Assembly (NCBI GenBank): GCA_019639215.1
Contig: JAHBSH010000018.1
Span: forward strand, 1 to 35,427
Source of the DNA: Acidobacteriota bacterium
GTDB lineage: Bacteria; Acidobacteriota; Blastocatellia; Pyrinomonadales; Pyrinomonadaceae
DNA: 35,427 bases
Reading direction: 5' to 3'
The notes under the pieces were generated by a model. That model was not told the origin of the DNA and did not search any database. It worked only from the letters and a program-made list of their open reading frames with translations. Position 1 is the first letter of the stretch, and the number at the start of each line of letters is the position of its first letter. Position numbers and translations under genes: made by a program. Shown here piece by piece: positions 1 to 31,985 of this stretch.

Positions 1-623
1 ATTATCAGAACACCCGCGTAATTCTTATCAAGATACTTTTCATTTGTGCCGTGATGAACTCGATGATGCGACGGCGTATTCAAGATGTATTCCAAAGGAC
101 CGAGGCGGTCTATCAGCTTTGTGTGTATCCAAAATTGATAGATCAGGTTAAAGCCGTGCATGACGGCAAACATCCACGGAGCAAAACCGAGCAGCATTAT
201 CGGCAGATAAAATATCCAATGTGCGATGCCGCTAAACCAACTCTGCCGCACCGCAACCGAAAGGTTATAGCTTTCGCTGGAATGGTGAACAACGTGAAAA
301 TTCCAGAAAAAGCGGCATTCGTGGCTTACGCGGTGAAACCAGTAATAGGCAAAGTCGTCGATAAAGAACAAAATGACCCATGTCCACCACGCATCGGCAG
401 GGAATTTATAAGGAGCAAATTCGTAAACCGCCGTATAAATTACACCGATGAAAATACCGAAAAGCGCCCCAAATGCAACACTCCCAAAACCAAGAAAGAT
501 ATTTGTCCAGGCGTCTTTGCGGTCGTAATCCTCGCGGTCCTCGCGCACGGTAAACCAAGCCTCAACCGCGATAAGCACGGCAAAAAGCGGAATGGCGATG
601 ACCGTAGGCTTCAGATACTCCAC
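1..623 (-). CDS. Sterol desaturase / fatty acid hydroxylase superfamily membrane protein (partial, 3' end outside window)
   Basis: The minus-strand frame is open from a GTG at 623 to the window edge, giving about 207 residues without a stop. It carries the histidine clusters of the di-iron fatty acid hydroxylase superfamily: HRVSHE, then HVVHHSS, then HHRVHH near the window edge. Hydrophobic segments (first near residues 6-18, another around the FGALFGIFIGVIY stretch) fit a multi-span inner-membrane enzyme. Family members hydroxylate or desaturate sterols, fatty acids or related lipids with O2; the substrate cannot be read here. The nearest in-frame stop upstream is about 33 bases before the GTG, and no ATG lies between, so GTG is the only reasonable start, although no clear ribosome binding site precedes it. 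The family call is firm; the exact start is less so. Confidence 0.88.
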   Translation of the reverse strand, partial: MEYLKPTVIAIPLFAVLIAVEAWFTVREDREDYDRKDAWTNIFLGFGSVAFGALFGIFIGVIYTAVYEFAPYKFPADAWWTWVILFFIDDFAYYWFHRVSHECRFFWNFHVVHHSSESYNLSVAVRQSWFSGIAHWIFYLPIMLLGFAPWMFAVMHGFNLIYQFWIHTKLIDRLGPLEYILNTPSHHRVHHGTNEKYLDKNYAGVLI

Positions 624-732
624 AAAGGTTATTTTACTATTACTTCGGCGTTAGGAGAAAGAGCGATACGATCTGAAAGTTCTTATACTTTCGGTGATTT
701 ACTTCAAAGACGTTACGAATAATATTGTTTTA

Positions 733-2022: not shown

Positions 2023-2469
2023 ATGTATTGCCCAAATTGCGCTTCTAAGAACACAGCAGGACAAAAGTTTTGCCGTTCGTGCGGCATGAATCTTAGCCAG
2101 ATCTCCGTCAGCTATAAGGAACAATACGGCAGCGAAAAAGATGCAGCGATAGCTTTCTGGGACCGCTTCTTTGAGAGATTTGGAAAATTTGCTTTTGGCG
2201 GCCTTGTCGGGATCATCTTCGTCGGTGTAATTATCCTTATATATACAGTTGTCACTTCCATGATTTTTTCCGGAAAGAATCCCGTAATAGGAAGTTTTGT
2301 CGCTGTCTTCATCATTTTTGCGGTTATGACGCTTATCTGGGTCTTTTATAATGAGGCTAAAAAGGACAGGCCAAACGCCAAGGCCGATGAAGCTGATAAA
2401 CATCTACTAGAAGGCACCGATACGCAGGATTTCTTGCAGACCCGATCTTCGAACCTGTTCCCTCTGTAA
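2023..2469 (+). CDS. Zinc-ribbon membrane protein, C-terminus apparently frameshifted
   Basis: As read, this encodes 148 residues. Residues 2-20 form a zinc ribbon (CPNC, then CRSC) and two hydrophobic segments follow (about residues 55-85 and 90-112). The last residues read QTRSSNLFPL and stop at 2469. In the frame one base back, the same region reads FLADPIFEPVP, then SVTETTTRQL, and continues to a stop at 2529-2531. That tail matches the C-terminal motif of the two zinc-ribbon paralogues at 30791-31899 (SVTENTTKLL and SVIENTTRLF). A single-base insertion near 2425-2440, real or a sequencing error, would explain this; the ancestral gene probably spanned 2023-2531. Function unknown. Such proteins join a cytoplasmic zinc ribbon to a membrane anchor. 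Confidence 0.8.
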   Translation: MYCPNCASKNTAGQKFCRSCGMNLSQISVSYKEQYGSEKDAAIAFWDRFFERFGKFAFGGLVGIIFVGVIILIYTVVTSMIFSGKNPVIGSFVAVFIIFAVMTLIWVFYNEAKKDRPNAKADEADKHLLEGTDTQDFLQTRSSNLFPL

Positions 2470-2586
2470 CAGAAACCACTACACGCCAGCTAAGGACAAA
2501 AGAACCTGTAAAGAGGGCCGATCAAACCTGATCTCTTAATTGTTCTTTACGAACTACCTTTCCTAACCACGACCTCAAGGACGCGA

Positions 2587-2623: not shown

Positions 2624-3145
2624 ATGAGTGAATTAAAGATAGTTCTCTATCCCGATCCGGTATTGTTGACTATCGGAAAACCGGTCGGCGAAGAAGAGTT
2701 CAATGCCGATCTGGAAAAGACCGTGGCTGATATGTTCGAAACGATGCATTCAGCTCATGGCGTCGGGTTGGCTGCGCCCCAGGTGGGCATCTCAAAACGC
2801 TTTTTCGTAATGGATATTGCTGATGAAGAAGGCAGGCCGAATCCGCTTGCGTTCTTTAATCCTGAGATCATTGGTGTAGAAGGAGAGCAAACCGGTGACG
2901 AAGGCTGTCTCTCTTTTCCGGGCCTTTATCAGCAGGTCAGACGCGATATGCGTGTGATAGTTCGGGCACAGGATGTAAAAGGCGATAGGTTTGAGATGGA
3001 TGTAACGGAACTTTCCGCCCGCTGTGTGCTTCACGAAACAGACCATTGTGACGGCATCGTTTTTCTCGACCGTATGTCACCGCTGAAACGTCAGTTGGCA
3101 AAACGCAAGATAAAACGGCTGCAAAATACCGGAAAGTGGGAGTGA
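2624..3145 (+). CDS. def: Peptide deformylase
   Basis: The product has 173 residues, the usual length. It removes the N-terminal formyl group from nascent proteins in the cytoplasm, using a metal ion. All three motifs are intact: GVGLAAPQVG (residues 46-55, with Gln53), EGCLS (93-97, with metal ligand Cys95) and HETDH (137-141, with His137 and His141 as ligands and Glu138 as catalytic base). The lysine/arginine-rich tail is typical. The gene appears to be transcribed without a leader. It is separated by nearly 8 kb from its functional partner fmt (10977), although the two are adjacent in many bacteria. A terminator-like hairpin follows at 3174-3214. Confidence 0.97.
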   Translation: MSELKIVLYPDPVLLTIGKPVGEEEFNADLEKTVADMFETMHSAHGVGLAAPQVGISKRFFVMDIADEEGRPNPLAFFNPEIIGVEGEQTGDEGCLSFPGLYQQVRRDMRVIVRAQDVKGDRFEMDVTELSARCVLHETDHCDGIVFLDRMSPLKRQLAKRKIKRLQNTGKWE

Positions 3146-20960: not shown

Positions 20961-23900
20961 ATGAAAAAAATTCAGGAAAAAGTAAAGGATATTGTTGATG
21001 TCCGCCCCTATCGGGGACTTAGGGATTTTGCTGCTGACGCACGGCAAACCCTTGAACACTATTGCTTTACAGACGATACCTCGGCATTGATGGCAAAGTG
21101 GGTGAACGCTGCTGCGACCGTCTCACCGCAGAACGGGATCGCCTTGGCCTTGGCAGGGTATCGCGGGGTCGGCAAAAGCCATTTCCTTGCAGCGTTTGGC
21201 ACCATTTTGGCTCTTTCAGAGTTACGGTCAAAAGTTGGCGACGGACATGTAGCCGCAGCTGCTCAGGGTCTTTTGCGCCGTCATTATCCTTTGGTCAGCG
21301 TTCGTCGAGGCTCCCAGGAATCGCTTGTTGACGAAATAAAAGAAGCAATTAGGAACAGATTTGGTCCTGAGGTTCAGTTCAACGCAGATACACCAGCGGC
21401 GATACTCACCGAAGGCATAAAGCGGGCCGGCGATCTACCGCTCGTGGTAATAATCGATACGGCATTTGAACGCGGAAACCGTGTGGCCCGCAACGATGGG
21501 GCGATCTTAGGTGAGGCCGCCGAATTCGCACAAAGCAATAATATGCTGCTTTGTGTAGCTCTTGACGACGACATAGCAGGGGCGGACGGTTCTAACGCAG
21601 CGATCGTTAGGACGTTCAAGATCGATTACCTTGACCAGGAACATCTTTACAAGGTGGTCAATTCGCACATTTTCCCGAAAAATGGCCAGAAGCAGCCGAT
21701 CATAGAGGATATCTATCAGTTCTTTTGCTCAGTAGTTCCTAATTTTAGATGGAGCTCCCAGAGGTTTGTATCACTATATCCTTTGCATCCAGGTATTCTT
21801 GAAATTTCGCCTTATGTTCGTCTTTATGTTCATGATTTTGCTCTCCTGAGTTTTGCAGCTGAGGCTGGTGAGCGAATACTGGGCAGACCAGCCAATTCAC
21901 TGATCGCTTTTGACGAGGTATTCGATAAGGCAGAACCTTACTTAAGGAAGATCGAAGACCTGGCTGATGCATTTCAGGCATATGACAAACTTAACACTGA
22001 AGTTGTCAGCAAAATACCAGTAATTCAAAGACTTCAGGCAAAGCTGATCCTGAAAGCGTTGCTTTTGCTGTCGCTTAACGGACGAGGCGCTACCGCTGAG
22101 GATATTTGCTCGGCGATGTTGATATTCGACGAAGCCGAACCCGTAAATGCAGTTAATAACGTCAGAAGTATAATTGAATTGTTTTCACAGGCACTTCCGG
22201 AAGATATCACCACAATTCGCGAAGAATCATCCGGAGACACCTTGTTCAGCTTTAGGGTGCAGGCGAAGGAAAATATCAACAGCGCTTTGCAGGAAGCCGT
22301 TGCCGAGATGGACCGGAAAGATGTTCCATCAATAATAAGAGGCTTGCTGCAGGAACGTTACCCGGATTTCTCAATTCCGGTTAGGTTGGACGGTTCCGCA
22401 CGCCCGTCTATGGATTCGATAGCAGTTTGGCGAGGCGGCCAGCGAAGAGGACGCATCTATTGGCGCGAAGGGGATGGCTCTGATACGACTGCGAGAGAAC
22501 GGTCAGATGACGTCCTTGATTGGGAAGTAACAATTGATCTTGGATCAAGCCCTGCTGAAGGCTCTGTCGGACACTCTAGTTCCGGCGTAGTGTGGAAACC
22601 CGACTCACTTAAGAATGAAGAAATTGACACGTTGCTGAAGCACCATCTTCTGAAGACCGAAAACAATGTGGTTGATAGGTTTGGAGAACACGTAAGGGCT
22701 TCGATACACTCTCATAGAGTTGCCGCCGAGCGTATTGTCGATCGGATAATGCTGCAGAACGGCAATCTCCGCATAGACGGTTTCGATTATAATTTTACGG
22801 AAGAAGCTCTTTCAGCCGACACGATCTCGGGCCTTATTTCCTCGATGCTTGAACCGTTGTTTGAGACGCGGTTTCCGCTTCATCCACACTTCGGTGAAAA
22901 GCTTGGCATGGCTGAGGTGTCGAAGATCGTTTCTGAGCTTTATGCTGGTTCACGCCAAAATCTTGAAGAAGTTCAGCATCTTGCCCGAACATTCTCTCTA
23001 CCGTTAGGGCTTGTCCGTTACGAGGAAGGAAAATATCTTCCGGAAACGGCCGAGAATCTTGAAAAGCTTCCAAGCGCAGTAGAGATACTCAAATCTGTAA
23101 ATGAAGATGAGAACGGAACCGTCAGCCTTCAGTCTATCTATTTAAAGCTTCGCCAACCGCCATACGGACTTGTTCGCGAAGCCCAGCATCTGATCTTTGC
23201 CGCACTTGTCGCCGAACGAAAGATAGAGTTTCTTACATCCAAAGGCGACCGAATTAGCTCCCGTTCGTTAGACCTGAAGATCATCTGGGATGATATCGTA
23301 GGTGTCGCAAAGCCGTTAGACTCAAGCGTTTCGGGTAAGCGACTGATTACATGGGCGCAAAAGATCACCGGCGATCAGGCTATCTCTTCTGTTGAAAAGA
23401 ATGAAGACGTTGCAAAGATCACGGAAAGTCTTTTGACATGGTTATCCGAATGGGACAACTCCGGTCTGCTGAACAGAATGGAACGAACCCCGGACGACCA
23501 AATGAACACGCTGATTTGGACTGAGGCAGCCCGTCTTCGCAAAACCTTTGGTATTGTTGCGGATGAGATCAGGAATTTCATCAATGGAAATTCTTACGTT
23601 GAAACTGTTCTTAGCCGTATCTCTGACGTATTTCACGACAGTGAGGATGAGTATGATCGTTCATTAAATGCAATGGCAGATCTTACGTGCTTTCTTGCCG
23701 CAGTCAAACTTCGAATAGAGATCGTATCTTATGTCGCTGCCTGTGAACCGACCGGTGATTCGAAATTGGAAGATATAAGACAGGCATTGCTGGCGTCCCT
23801 TGATAGTGCAGTAACAAAGCCTAGTGAAACGCGAAACAGAGAAGCGGGCTATTTGTGGGAGCAATTTCGCCGCGGATATGTTGAGGTCTTTGCAACCCAG

Positions 23901-24515
23901 CATGATCAGATCATGAGATCTCATGATCTACAGGAAAAGTTTGATGAGATACTAAGGACAGATATCTGGTGGGAATTCGAAAGATTATCAGACATCTCCA
24001 CGCTTCGGGGTCCTGAATGGGCTTCAGTCAAAGCGATAATGAATCGTTTCCGGCAGCTTGATTGCAAGTTTGATGTGCGAGCTGCACTTTTACAGCGTCC
24101 GTCGTGCATCTGCGGATTCTACATGAGGGAAGCAAATTCATGGCAACAACTCCCTGATCTTTTGTGGTCTGAGATAACGAAAGGCCAGGCAGCTATACGA
24201 TCCAGATTAAGGGAAATGGCACCTGAGTTATCGTCACGAATGGACGAACTTTCGAGGAGTTCGAATGATAGTATTTCGCAGGCTTGTCGCGAGATGGCAG
24301 CCATTTTACGTTCGAACAAAGATCTTCCAAGGCTTTCAGATATTCACCTTATTGCCCTGAGAAGAGCTTTCACTCGGAAAATTATCGAAGCACCATTGCC
24401 AGACGAAGATACTCACCATGATGTAAGCGGATTTGACCAAAAAGTCAGAGAAGCTCTCAGCGGACCTATCGGCAGGCCGATCGACTCTGAAGAAGCAATG
24501 CTCATAGAAATGTGA
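20961..24515 (+). CDS. Large P-loop ATPase of unknown function (BrxC/PglY/DUF6079-like, orphan)
   Basis: The product has 1184 residues. A Walker A motif GYRGVGKS (66-73) is followed by HFLAAF, like the GKSH/GKTH loops of the large BrxC, PglY and DUF6079 ATPases. The Walker B strand LPLVVIID (159-166) ends in Asp166, but the next residue is Thr instead of the usual Glu; the nearest acidic residue is Glu170. A sensor-like strand MLLCVALDDD follows (about 195-204), then YPLHPGI (about 270), a segment that resembles the HP-containing stretch in that ATPase group. Residues 350-1180 are mainly helical with no recognised nuclease, helicase or protease domain. A CICGF motif with Cys1049 and Cys1051 lies near the end. 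No methylase, PglZ, Lon-like or other defence gene is nearby, and base composition matches the neighbours. Family relation is moderate; function unknown. Confidence 0.85.
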   Translation: MKKIQEKVKDIVDVRPYRGLRDFAADARQTLEHYCFTDDTSALMAKWVNAAATVSPQNGIALALAGYRGVGKSHFLAAFGTILALSELRSKVGDGHVAAAAQGLLRRHYPLVSVRRGSQESLVDEIKEAIRNRFGPEVQFNADTPAAILTEGIKRAGDLPLVVIIDTAFERGNRVARNDGAILGEAAEFAQSNNMLLCVALDDDIAGADGSNAAIVRTFKIDYLDQEHLYKVVNSHIFPKNGQKQPIIEDIYQFFCSVVPNFRWSSQRFVSLYPLHPGILEISPYVRLYVHDFALLSFAAEAGERILGRPANSLIAFDEVFDKAEPYLRKIEDLADAFQAYDKLNTEVVSKIPVIQRLQAKLILKALLLLSLNGRGATAEDICSAMLIFDEAEPVNAVNNVRSIIELFSQALPEDITTIREESSGDTLFSFRVQAKENINSALQEAVAEMDRKDVPSIIRGLLQERYPDFSIPVRLDGSARPSMDSIAVWRGGQRRGRIYWREGDGSDTTARERSDDVLDWEVTIDLGSSPAEGSVGHSSSGVVWKPDSLKNEEIDTLLKHHLLKTENNVVDRFGEHVRASIHSHRVAAERIVDRIMLQNGNLRIDGFDYNFTEEALSADTISGLISSMLEPLFETRFPLHPHFGEKLGMAEVSKIVSELYAGSRQNLEEVQHLARTFSLPLGLVRYEEGKYLPETAENLEKLPSAVEILKSVNEDENGTVSLQSIYLKLRQPPYGLVREAQHLIFAALVAERKIEFLTSKGDRISSRSLDLKIIWDDIVGVAKPLDSSVSGKRLITWAQKITGDQAISSVEKNEDVAKITESLLTWLSEWDNSGLLNRMERTPDDQMNTLIWTEAARLRKTFGIVADEIRNFINGNSYVETVLSRISDVFHDSEDEYDRSLNAMADLTCFLAAVKLRIEIVSYVAACEPTGDSKLEDIRQALLASLDSAVTKPSETRNREAGYLWEQFRRGYVEVFATQHDQIMRSHDLQEKFDEILRTDIWWEFERLSDISTLRGPEWASVKAIMNRFRQLDCKFDVRAALLQRPSCICGFYMREANSWQQLPDLLWSEITKGQAAIRSRLREMAPELSSRMDELSRSSNDSISQACREMAAILRSNKDLPRLSDIHLIALRRAFTRKIIEAPLPDEDTHHDVSGFDQKVREALSGPIGRPIDSEEAMLIEM

Positions 24516-29060: not shown

Positions 29061-30797
29061 ATGCTGAACAGTAAAATACGACCCGGTCTCGCTTTTTTCT
29101 TTCTGTTTCTACTCGTTTTCGTAGGGCTTCCAAAAGATCTTTCGGTTGCCGCAGCAACGCGAGAGCCTGTACGCGGAAAACATGCGATGGTTGCGTCTCA
29201 ACACGAACTGGCCTCACGTATCGGTGTCGAGATCATGAAAAAGGGCGGTAATGCAGTAGATGCGGCTATCGCCGTAGGCATTGCGTTGGCGGTCGTTTAT
29301 CCCGAAGCCGGCAACATCGGCGGCGGCGGATTTATGATCATCCATTCGCCGGGCAAAGAGCCTAAAGCGATCGATTACCGCGAGATGGCTCCGAAAGCCG
29401 CACATCGTGATCTTTATCTTGATAAAGATGGCGAGCTGATCAGAGGCGAAGGCGGTTCAACTATAGGTTATCGGGCATCAGGTGTCCCCGGAACGCTTGC
29501 GGGTTTCGATCTGGCATTCAAAAAATACGGTTCAGGCAAAGTTAAATGGGCCGATCTGATAGAACCTGCTCAGCGGCTCGCGGTTGAGGGATTTGTACTT
29601 TCTCACAGACTGGCTGAGCTTGCCATCGCATATCGCGAACATCTTGCCAAATATCCTGATAGCAACCGCATTTTCCTTAATGACGGGAAATATTACAGAG
29701 AAGGGGCACTTTTCAAACAAGCTGAGTTGGGAGAAACGCTTGGCCGTATAGCAAAAGAAGGGGCGGAGGAGTTCTATACCGGCAAGACCGCCAGAATGAT
29801 AGCCGATGACATGAAGGCAAACAACGGCCTTATCACGCTAGAAGACTTGAAGAATTATGTCGCAAAGGAGCGTGAACCTATCAGAGGCAATTATCGCGGC
29901 CACGAGATCATATCAATGTCGCCGCCAAGCTCAGGCGGACTTGTGTTGATGCAGGTGCTGAAGATGCTTGAACCGTATGACCTCAAGTCTCTAGGTAACA
30001 ATTCGGCGGCGAAATATCATTTGTACATCGAAGCTTCGAGACGAGCATTTGCTGACAGGGCTGAGTATATGGGCGATGCTGATTTTGCCGATGTTCCGAT
30101 AAAAGGACTGCTTGACAATGATTATATTGCATCGCGAAGGGCAACAATAGATCTGAAGAAGGCCACACCGAGCGCTGAGATCCGTTTTGGACAACCGCCG
30201 GGTTCCGAGAGTAACGATACGACGCATTACACAGTGGTAGATCCGTCCGGGATGGTTGTATCAAACACCTACACGATCAATGATCTTTATGGTTCGCGCG
30301 TTACCATAAAGGGAACTGGAATTCTGATGAATGATGAGATGGACGATTTTGCGGCGAGGCCGGGAATGCCGAATATGTACGGACTCATCCAGGGGGAACG
30401 CAACAAGATCGAAGGCGGTAAACGGCCACTGTCGGCAATGACGCCGACCATTGTCCTGAGAAAGGATGGAACTGTTTGGTTCGCTGTTGGAGCCAGAGGC
30501 GGCCCGCGTATCATATCGGCAGTATTGCAAACTGTGATAAACGTTATCGATCATGATATGAATATCCAACAGGCCATAGATTCGCCAAGGGTACATCATC
30601 AGTGGATGCCGGACACTATCGGTTTTGAACGGTATGGACTTTCTCCAGACACGATCAACATACTGACAGGCATGGGACATAAATTTGCTGGAAGTCCCGG
30701 AAATATTGCGTCGGCAACGGGAATAATGATCGCAGAGGACGGAACACGCCTTGGGGCCATAGACGGACGCAGCGACGGAGAAGCGATAGGTTACTGA
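29061..30797 (+). CDS. ggt: Gamma-glutamyltranspeptidase / glutathione hydrolase
   Basis: The product has 578 residues, the usual length, with a signal peptide (about 1-32) for periplasmic export. It cleaves the gamma-glutamyl bond of glutathione and related peptides. The proenzyme self-cleaves before Thr387 in SNDTTHYTVVD to give the two subunits, as in E. coli. Arg107 in DYREMAP, which binds the glutamyl carboxylate, is present, as are GNIGGGGF near residue 85, NDEMDDF and the SAMTPTIV loop with the substrate-contacting serine. No glutathione synthesis gene is in the window. The stop overlaps the end of the convergent zinc-ribbon gene by seven bases. Confidence 0.96.
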   Translation: MLNSKIRPGLAFFFLFLLVFVGLPKDLSVAAATREPVRGKHAMVASQHELASRIGVEIMKKGGNAVDAAIAVGIALAVVYPEAGNIGGGGFMIIHSPGKEPKAIDYREMAPKAAHRDLYLDKDGELIRGEGGSTIGYRASGVPGTLAGFDLAFKKYGSGKVKWADLIEPAQRLAVEGFVLSHRLAELAIAYREHLAKYPDSNRIFLNDGKYYREGALFKQAELGETLGRIAKEGAEEFYTGKTARMIADDMKANNGLITLEDLKNYVAKEREPIRGNYRGHEIISMSPPSSGGLVLMQVLKMLEPYDLKSLGNNSAAKYHLYIEASRRAFADRAEYMGDADFADVPIKGLLDNDYIASRRATIDLKKATPSAEIRFGQPPGSESNDTTHYTVVDPSGMVVSNTYTINDLYGSRVTIKGTGILMNDEMDDFAARPGMPNMYGLIQGERNKIEGGKRPLSAMTPTIVLRKDGTVWFAVGARGGPRIISAVLQTVINVIDHDMNIQQAIDSPRVHHQWMPDTIGFERYGLSPDTINILTGMGHKFAGSPGNIASATGIMIAEDGTRLGAIDGRSDGEAIGY

Positions 30798-31342
30798 TCG
30801 GTATCTTTTCTTTCAAAAAGCCTGGTGGTGTTTTCAATAACGCTGCCGGGTCTTTTTTCTATTGTGACGTCTTCGCGCCACTGTCCGACTGACGGCGGAT
30901 CATAGCTCTGGACAGGTGTTGTTAAAAATCCTGCTTTTATCGAGTTGGCATCAAATGACGATTGGATCGCATCAGTATGAGATGTTGAGGACCCTTGTTC
31001 AATTATCTCTGCGGATTCAAACATCAAAGCGTAGGCGGCTCTTAGCACCGAACCCATAAAAAAAGTTATCGCCAGGAGGACAACGAGAAAAGGTCCGGCA
31101 TTTAGACCTACCGATATTATAGTGACTAGAGGAACAACAAGAAATCCGATCAAAAAGAAGAAGAGGCCATGCTTCAAACCTCTTTTTCTCGGAGAGGTGC
31201 CGGTTCTTTCGGCCAGATGAGGGGTAATGCCTCGATTATCAACCAACTGAGCTACGCCGGTCATTAAAAAACCACAGCGCGAGCAGTATCTTGTTTCGTC
31301 ACTTATTTGCTGTTGACCGCATTTTGGACAATAGATGGGCAT
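30791..31342 (-). CDS. Zinc-ribbon membrane protein (paralogue B)
   Basis: The product has 183 residues. Residues 5-24 form a zinc ribbon (CPKC, then CSRC). A disordered linker is followed by two membrane spans (about 50-72 and 76-98), then a soluble part ending in GSVIENTTRLFER. This tail motif is shared with the paralogue 2 bases upstream and, in a shifted frame, with the gene at 2023. The two minus-strand genes form an operon in which this is second. The last seven bases overlap the convergent ggt gene. The general design, a cytoplasmic zinc finger tethered to the membrane with a conserved C-terminal peptide, suggests a signalling or scaffold role, which is inference. Confidence 0.82.
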   Translation of the reverse strand: MPIYCPKCGQQQISDETRYCSRCGFLMTGVAQLVDNRGITPHLAERTGTSPRKRGLKHGLFFFLIGFLVVPLVTIISVGLNAGPFLVVLLAITFFMGSVLRAAYALMFESAEIIEQGSSTSHTDAIQSSFDANSIKAGFLTTPVQSYDPPSVGQWREDVTIEKRPGSVIENTTRLFERKDTDQ

Positions 31343-31344
31343 GG

Positions 31345-31899
31345 TTATTTCTCTTTCTGCTGTCTGATCAGAAGCTTTGTAGTGTTTTCGGTAACGCTTC
31401 CAGGAACTCTTAGTTTTCCGGTATCGCGACCTTCTGCATTGGGACCAGCAGGTTGAATATAGTCTGTCGCAGTCGAATGAAGGTCATCATAAAGAGCCCT
31501 CGGAGCAACGGGTTCATTGATCAATGTGGGTTTGTTCTTAAGCTCGTCTAGAAATGCTCTGCCCGTCGGTGGACGCTTTGGTAGAAATAATGACACGAAA
31601 AGCAACATCACTCCTCCCGAAAAGCCAAAGACAGCTCCAAATGCCGCAAGATCGTCTATACCCATTGCACCTGAAAGAGGAACTACAAGAAGAAGCCAAA
31701 ACATGAACCAAAGCACACTGAACAATATGCCGTTCTTTCTGTAAAGCCATGACGGTAGCTTAGAATCTGTGTCAGAGCCTGATATCGGTGATCCATCATT
31801 AGAGAGTACGAGTGCTATTTGATCAAGCCGCAAACCGCATCTGTTGCAAAAGGTTGTTTCTCTGGTAAATTGTTCCTGACCACATCTTGGACAATACAT
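31345..31899 (-). CDS. Zinc-ribbon membrane protein (paralogue A)
   Basis: The product has 184 residues from the ATG at 31899, which gives the family start MYCPRCG and has AAGGA about ten bases upstream; an ATG at 31920 would add seven residues but lacks a ribosome binding site. Residues 2-22 form a zinc ribbon (CPRC, then CNRC). Two hydrophobic spans follow (about 56-78 and 83-105), then a soluble tail ending in GSVTENTTKLLIR. It is the first gene of a two-gene operon with its close paralogue, 2 bases apart, which points to a local duplication. The function of the family is not known to me. Confidence 0.82.
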   Translation of the reverse strand: MYCPRCGQEQFTRETTFCNRCGLRLDQIALVLSNDGSPISGSDTDSKLPSWLYRKNGILFSVLWFMFWLLLVVPLSGAMGIDDLAAFGAVFGFSGGVMLLFVSLFLPKRPPTGRAFLDELKNKPTLINEPVAPRALYDDLHSTATDYIQPAGPNAEGRDTGKLRVPGSVTENTTKLLIRQQKEK

Positions 31900-31985
31900 A
31901 ACTGAGTTTTCCTTGCTCATCGGCTGGATAAACGAATTTTTACACGAAAAGGTTCAATCGTAAAGCGTTAAATATGCCTGTTATG

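Follow-up and report, generated by a model that had tools for sequence, protein, structure and literature searches.

A zinc-ribbon membrane protein gene of an Acidobacteriota bacterium with its conserved C-terminal tail in the next reading frame

The open reading frame (ORF) at 2023 to 2469 on the forward strand of the window encodes a zinc-ribbon, two-helix membrane protein that loses its frame near the 3′ end, and it is very probably a normally longer gene broken by one insertion or deletion, either a real recent loss or an error of the consensus, rather than a gene with a regulated switch. The window is the whole stretch of DNA that was analyzed (35,427 nucleotides), which is contig 46 of a draft genome of 135 contigs and 2.9 Mb (completeness 92.24, contamination 0.8). 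The ORF is 148 aa long and ends with a TAA stop at 2467 to 2469. Residues 2 to 24 (2026 to 2094) form a Cys4 zinc ribbon that exceeds the Pfam cut-offs of both Zn_ribbon_3 (PF13248) and Zn_Ribbon_1 (PF13240), with its four cysteines invariant in 28 relatives, and a Kyte-Doolittle plot (sliding window of 19) shows two hydrophobic segments, the first beginning at residue 52 and the second at residue 80. We coined the name acidobacterial zinc-ribbon/hairpin/SVTE-tail proteins for a group defined by an N-terminal Cys4 ribbon, one, two, or three hydrophobic segments following it, and, without a change of frame, a C-terminal S-[VI]-x-[ED]-x-[TS]-T-x-x-[LF]; the window ORF has the first two, and the third is found only in the next frame. 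Upstream lies a fatty acid hydroxylase gene (3 to 650, reverse strand) and downstream def, encoding peptide deformylase (2624 to 3145, forward strand; PF01327), which is the syntenic neighbor in the orthologs. The stretch from about 730 to 1350 is dense in short repeated pieces, contains no convincing gene, and includes a perfect tandem repeat at 1073 to 1174 (42-base unit, 2.4 copies).

One base back, the frame opens at 2400, directly after a stop at 2397, stays open through 2528, ends with TGA at 2529 to 2531, and reads ...FLADPIFEPVPSVTETTTRQLRTKEPVKRADQT. It is tail-like from about 2430 and carries the motif SVTETTTRQL at 2463 to 2492. A tail profile was built from the C-terminal 48 residues of seven relatives, leaving out the window itself. 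Run against every window frame that spans 20 aa or more from stop to stop, it placed the 2400 to 2528 frame first of 1046 (25.5 bits, E 5.7e-7), with the two window paralogs next (E 0.004 and 0.054). When the 43-aa tail peptide was shuffled 5000 times, none of the 4959 shuffles reported reached 25.5 bits, and the best scored 12.2 bits. The paralogs, also zinc-ribbon proteins, are encoded on the reverse strand in tandem, 2 bases apart, at 30791 to 31342 (ending ...PGSVIENTTRLFERKDTDQ) and 31345 to 31920 (ending ...PGSVTENTTKLLIRQQKEK), each with the tail in frame. The sequence-only reading had taken the gene to be truncated by a frameshift, with a tail resembling those of the paralogs intact in the next frame; the independent profile and the shuffles put the resemblance above chance and, together with the in-frame tails of the orthologs described below, bear out the truncation.

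The interval of frame loss (net −1 or +2) can be narrowed to about 2418 to 2440, because this is where the profile alignments of the first frame and the tail frame come together and where the codon-usage optimum falls. In a profile of the full relatives, the alignment of the first frame reaches position 142, and that of the tail frame starts at position 135. Codon usage trained on 16 window genes places the best frame switch at 2430, a modest improvement from 25.6 bits with no switch out of the original frame to 33.0 bits. After the break the ORF runs for about a dozen codons to its stop. When a family profile was searched against the organism's own genome, the ribbon part (2023 to 2445) and the tail (2373 to 2507) were returned as two separate matches.

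Relatives were sought in 60 genomes, 53 of which gave a match. The closest other matches were L009, L010, and L011 (40 to 43% identical); no same-species genome was found among the relatives, the best of which are at most 43% identical. In all three of these loci (equivalent to L067, L071, and L064, respectively), def follows a short way downstream in the same orientation, just as it does in the window, and L068 is a fourth such locus. The ORF upstream in L009 appears by eye to encode a hydroxylase-like membrane protein, and the counterpart position in the window is occupied by the reverse-strand fatty acid hydroxylase. In all four def-linked orthologs, the tail and the membrane domain share one frame, and none ends at the same stop without the motif, the finding that would have told against a truncation. 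Because the four tails are in frame, the long form is ancestral, and the window copy, a frame-broken version of a normally longer gene, is the exception. The orthologs are 36 to 39% identical over the alignment, too distant for a test of present selection on the window gene. Breaks also occur in three further copies of the family, all at sites other than the window's: L071 (3001 to 3560), the equivalent of L010, has a frameshift within the zinc ribbon, L083 (639 to 1200) has a frameshift before the membrane part, and L082 (2115 to 2690) has an in-frame TAA. The window's own genome holds six further family members with the tail in frame (L145, L146, L147, L148, L151, and L152), and thus the tail is coded in seven of its genes, the broken copy counted. 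Searched as a DNA pattern in that genome, the motif was hardly enriched (6 matches versus 4 in a reversed control). A single-protein scan of a collection of genome contigs with the window ORF gave 75 pattern matches and no relatives by tblastn.

The tail proved to be widespread among acidobacterial relatives, which come from metagenome genomes of the Blastocatellia and Pyrinomonadaceae. Among 80 loci, 40 were acidobacterial by their titles, L071 being included because its contig is that of a same-genus genome, and S-[VI]-T-E-x-[TS]-T-x-x-L stands near the C terminus, in the frame of the ribbon, in 33 of them (30 by regular expression; L080, L095, and L099 by eye as variants). Three more have the tail behind a break (L071, L082, and L083), and four have no tail (L089, L114, L119, and L124). 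None of the 40 other loci (mostly from Clostridia, with archaea, Actinomycetota, and Bacilli) matches the tail expression. In an alignment of 28 relatives, 27 of which were chosen because a search had found the tail, position 1 of the motif is Ser in 28/28, position 4 Glu in 27/28, position 7 Thr in 28/28, and position 10 Leu in 26/28; within this tail-selected set, Ser 1 and Thr 7 match the zinc ligands in constancy. The loci, most of which were picked for zinc-ribbon similarity, and the window together gave 1469 frames that span 80 aa or more from stop to stop. The strict motif occurs near the end of 29 distinct ones: 27 carry a zinc ribbon, and L010 and L021, both broken copies, make up the other two, L021 being on the same contig as L082 by length. 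No frame with the strict motif was found in 20 stretches (about 232 kb) taken without regard to zinc ribbons. Pfam matches in the 28 relatives (E ≤ 0.001) were nearly all to ribbon models, with DUF6249 in 2/28 and none to the tail. A literature search by motif strings returned nothing on the motif, and one for zinc-ribbon proteins in Acidobacteria or Blastocatellia returned nothing that, judged by titles and abstract openings, describes the SVTE-tail family. Because its Ser and Thr are constant, Pfam does not cover it, and seven genes of one genome code for it, we regard the tail of these acidobacterial membrane proteins as a candidate regulatory motif of an uncharacterized family.

Three origins of the break had been offered from the sequence alone: a recent pseudogene, a one-base assembly error, and a programmed shift. 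The first two both stand, and the third does not. That the consensus of the metagenome assembly is wrong and the real gene intact comes very close to an even chance. The window belongs to a 135-contig, 92%-complete draft, and the copies in L071, L083, and L082, each broken at a different place, all lie in draft metagenome genomes. Many bacterial pseudogenes are assembly errors according to Cooley and Wright (PMC11017572), and where BLASTp supports a singleton frameshift, Antonov et al. (PMC3711429) expect a sequencing error. Two points speak against an assembly error: no homopolymer of four or more lies in the break zone, and the other genes of the window look intact. Among 20 further ORFs of the window, 17 match Pfam at E ≤ 1e-5, nearly all over the full model length and with no sign of a second break, and 3 have no match; the exceptions in length are repeat proteins and a 1184-aa ORF beginning at 20961. 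These intact neighbors argue against a generally error-ridden contig but do not clear a single site. The 1184-aa ORF (20961 to 24515) matches only part of DUF6079, and an early stretch of it, LAGYRGVGKSHFL, resembles a P-loop.

A real, recent indel, giving a tail-less allele that is becoming a pseudogene or is tolerated since paralogs remain, falls only a little short of an even chance. The genome has at least six more tailed members of the family, which could compensate for the loss, and the tail is otherwise undamaged, from which we infer that the event would have been recent. Antonov et al. (PMC3711429) attribute most unshared frame transitions to sequencing error or a recent indel and note that those near the 3′ end are likelier to be true indels. 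A point against a real loss is that there is no second lesion, and the rest of the ORF bears no sign of decay.

It is very improbable that programmed −1 ribosomal frameshifting or transcriptional slippage produces a short and a long form, even though, by profiles and codon usage, each frame looks like coding sequence as far as the junction. Because the last upstream stop in the next frame is at 2397, a shift would have to fall within 2400 to 2469, and this interval contains no X XXY YYZ heptamer; the sole in-phase slippery heptamer, CCCAAAT at 2031, lies upstream of ten next-frame stops. Slippage during transcription would call for a run of about eight or more A or T at the junction, and 2380 to 2469 has no homopolymer of even four. 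The RNA from 2425 folds like its shuffles in pseudoknot-free folding (z −0.30; 82 of 200 fold as well), and none of the four def-linked orthologs shifts here, the one that is broken being broken elsewhere. With no heptamer, no run, no unusual RNA structure, and no conserved transition, both programmed mechanisms were rejected. The notion that the gene normally ends with the stop at 2469 and that the tail, short as it is at about 20 aligned residues, resembles its relatives by chance is scarcely credible and was likewise rejected on the profile rank, the shuffles, and the acidobacterial counts.

On the preferred reading, a long-form gene broken by one indel, the ancestor would have encoded a membrane protein of about 168 residues with a cytoplasmic Cys4 ribbon, a two-helix hairpin, and a disordered cytoplasmic tail bearing S-[VI]-T-E-x-T-T-x-x-L. 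A single net −1 (or +2) indel within about 2418 to 2440 would then have shifted the tail out of frame, and the predicted product would now end with about a dozen unrelated residues, without the motif. A structure model of the ortholog L067 (mean pLDDT 76.1, pTM 0.44) has the ribbon, helices at 37 to 81 and 87 to 121, and a coil tail block with pLDDT of 47 to 56; truncation, judged from this model, would leave the ordered core of the protein in place. The hairpin would put the ribbon and the tail both on the cytoplasmic side. A search of solved structures gave only weak matches over the ribbon (best E 0.0038), and the ribbon is weakly similar to the kinase-prefix four-Cys domain NF045510 (23.0 bits, below the cut-off of 24).

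That so short a motif stays constant within a disordered tail suggests a site for docking or modification, and the tail is probably important to function. The invariant Thr at motif position 7 has Leu at +3 in 26/28 relatives, and FHA domains select their ligands partly by the residue at pT+3 (PMC5549992). The genome has 16 FHA-domain and 15 protein-kinase matches, some of them several per frame. We offer as a guess, and an unlikely one, that the tail may be an undescribed short linear motif acting as a phosphothreonine switch, in which the invariant second Thr would be phosphorylated by Ser/Thr kinases and then recognized, along with the Leu at +3, by FHA domains; if that were so, loss of the tail would uncouple the window copy. 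The tail is the more interesting part and may repay work. The frameshift itself is ordinary and matters mainly for annotation, in which the gene should be flagged as frame-broken and not as a short protein.

The gene can be set beside three known classes. It shares with Zn_ribbon_3 and Zn_Ribbon_1 proteins the ribbon of residues 2 to 24, above both cut-offs, but those models span the ribbon only, and none of the Pfam matches of the 28 relatives falls on the tail. Programmed −1 genes such as dnaX (PMC3711429) likewise have two overlapping frames on one strand; in contrast to them, the window gene has no slippery heptamer and no stimulator was seen, and its transition is not conserved. With the frameshifted singletons and artefactual pseudogenes of prokaryotes (PMC3711429, PMC11017572), it has in common one transition in one genome with similarity on both sides, and we found no difference from this ordinary class.
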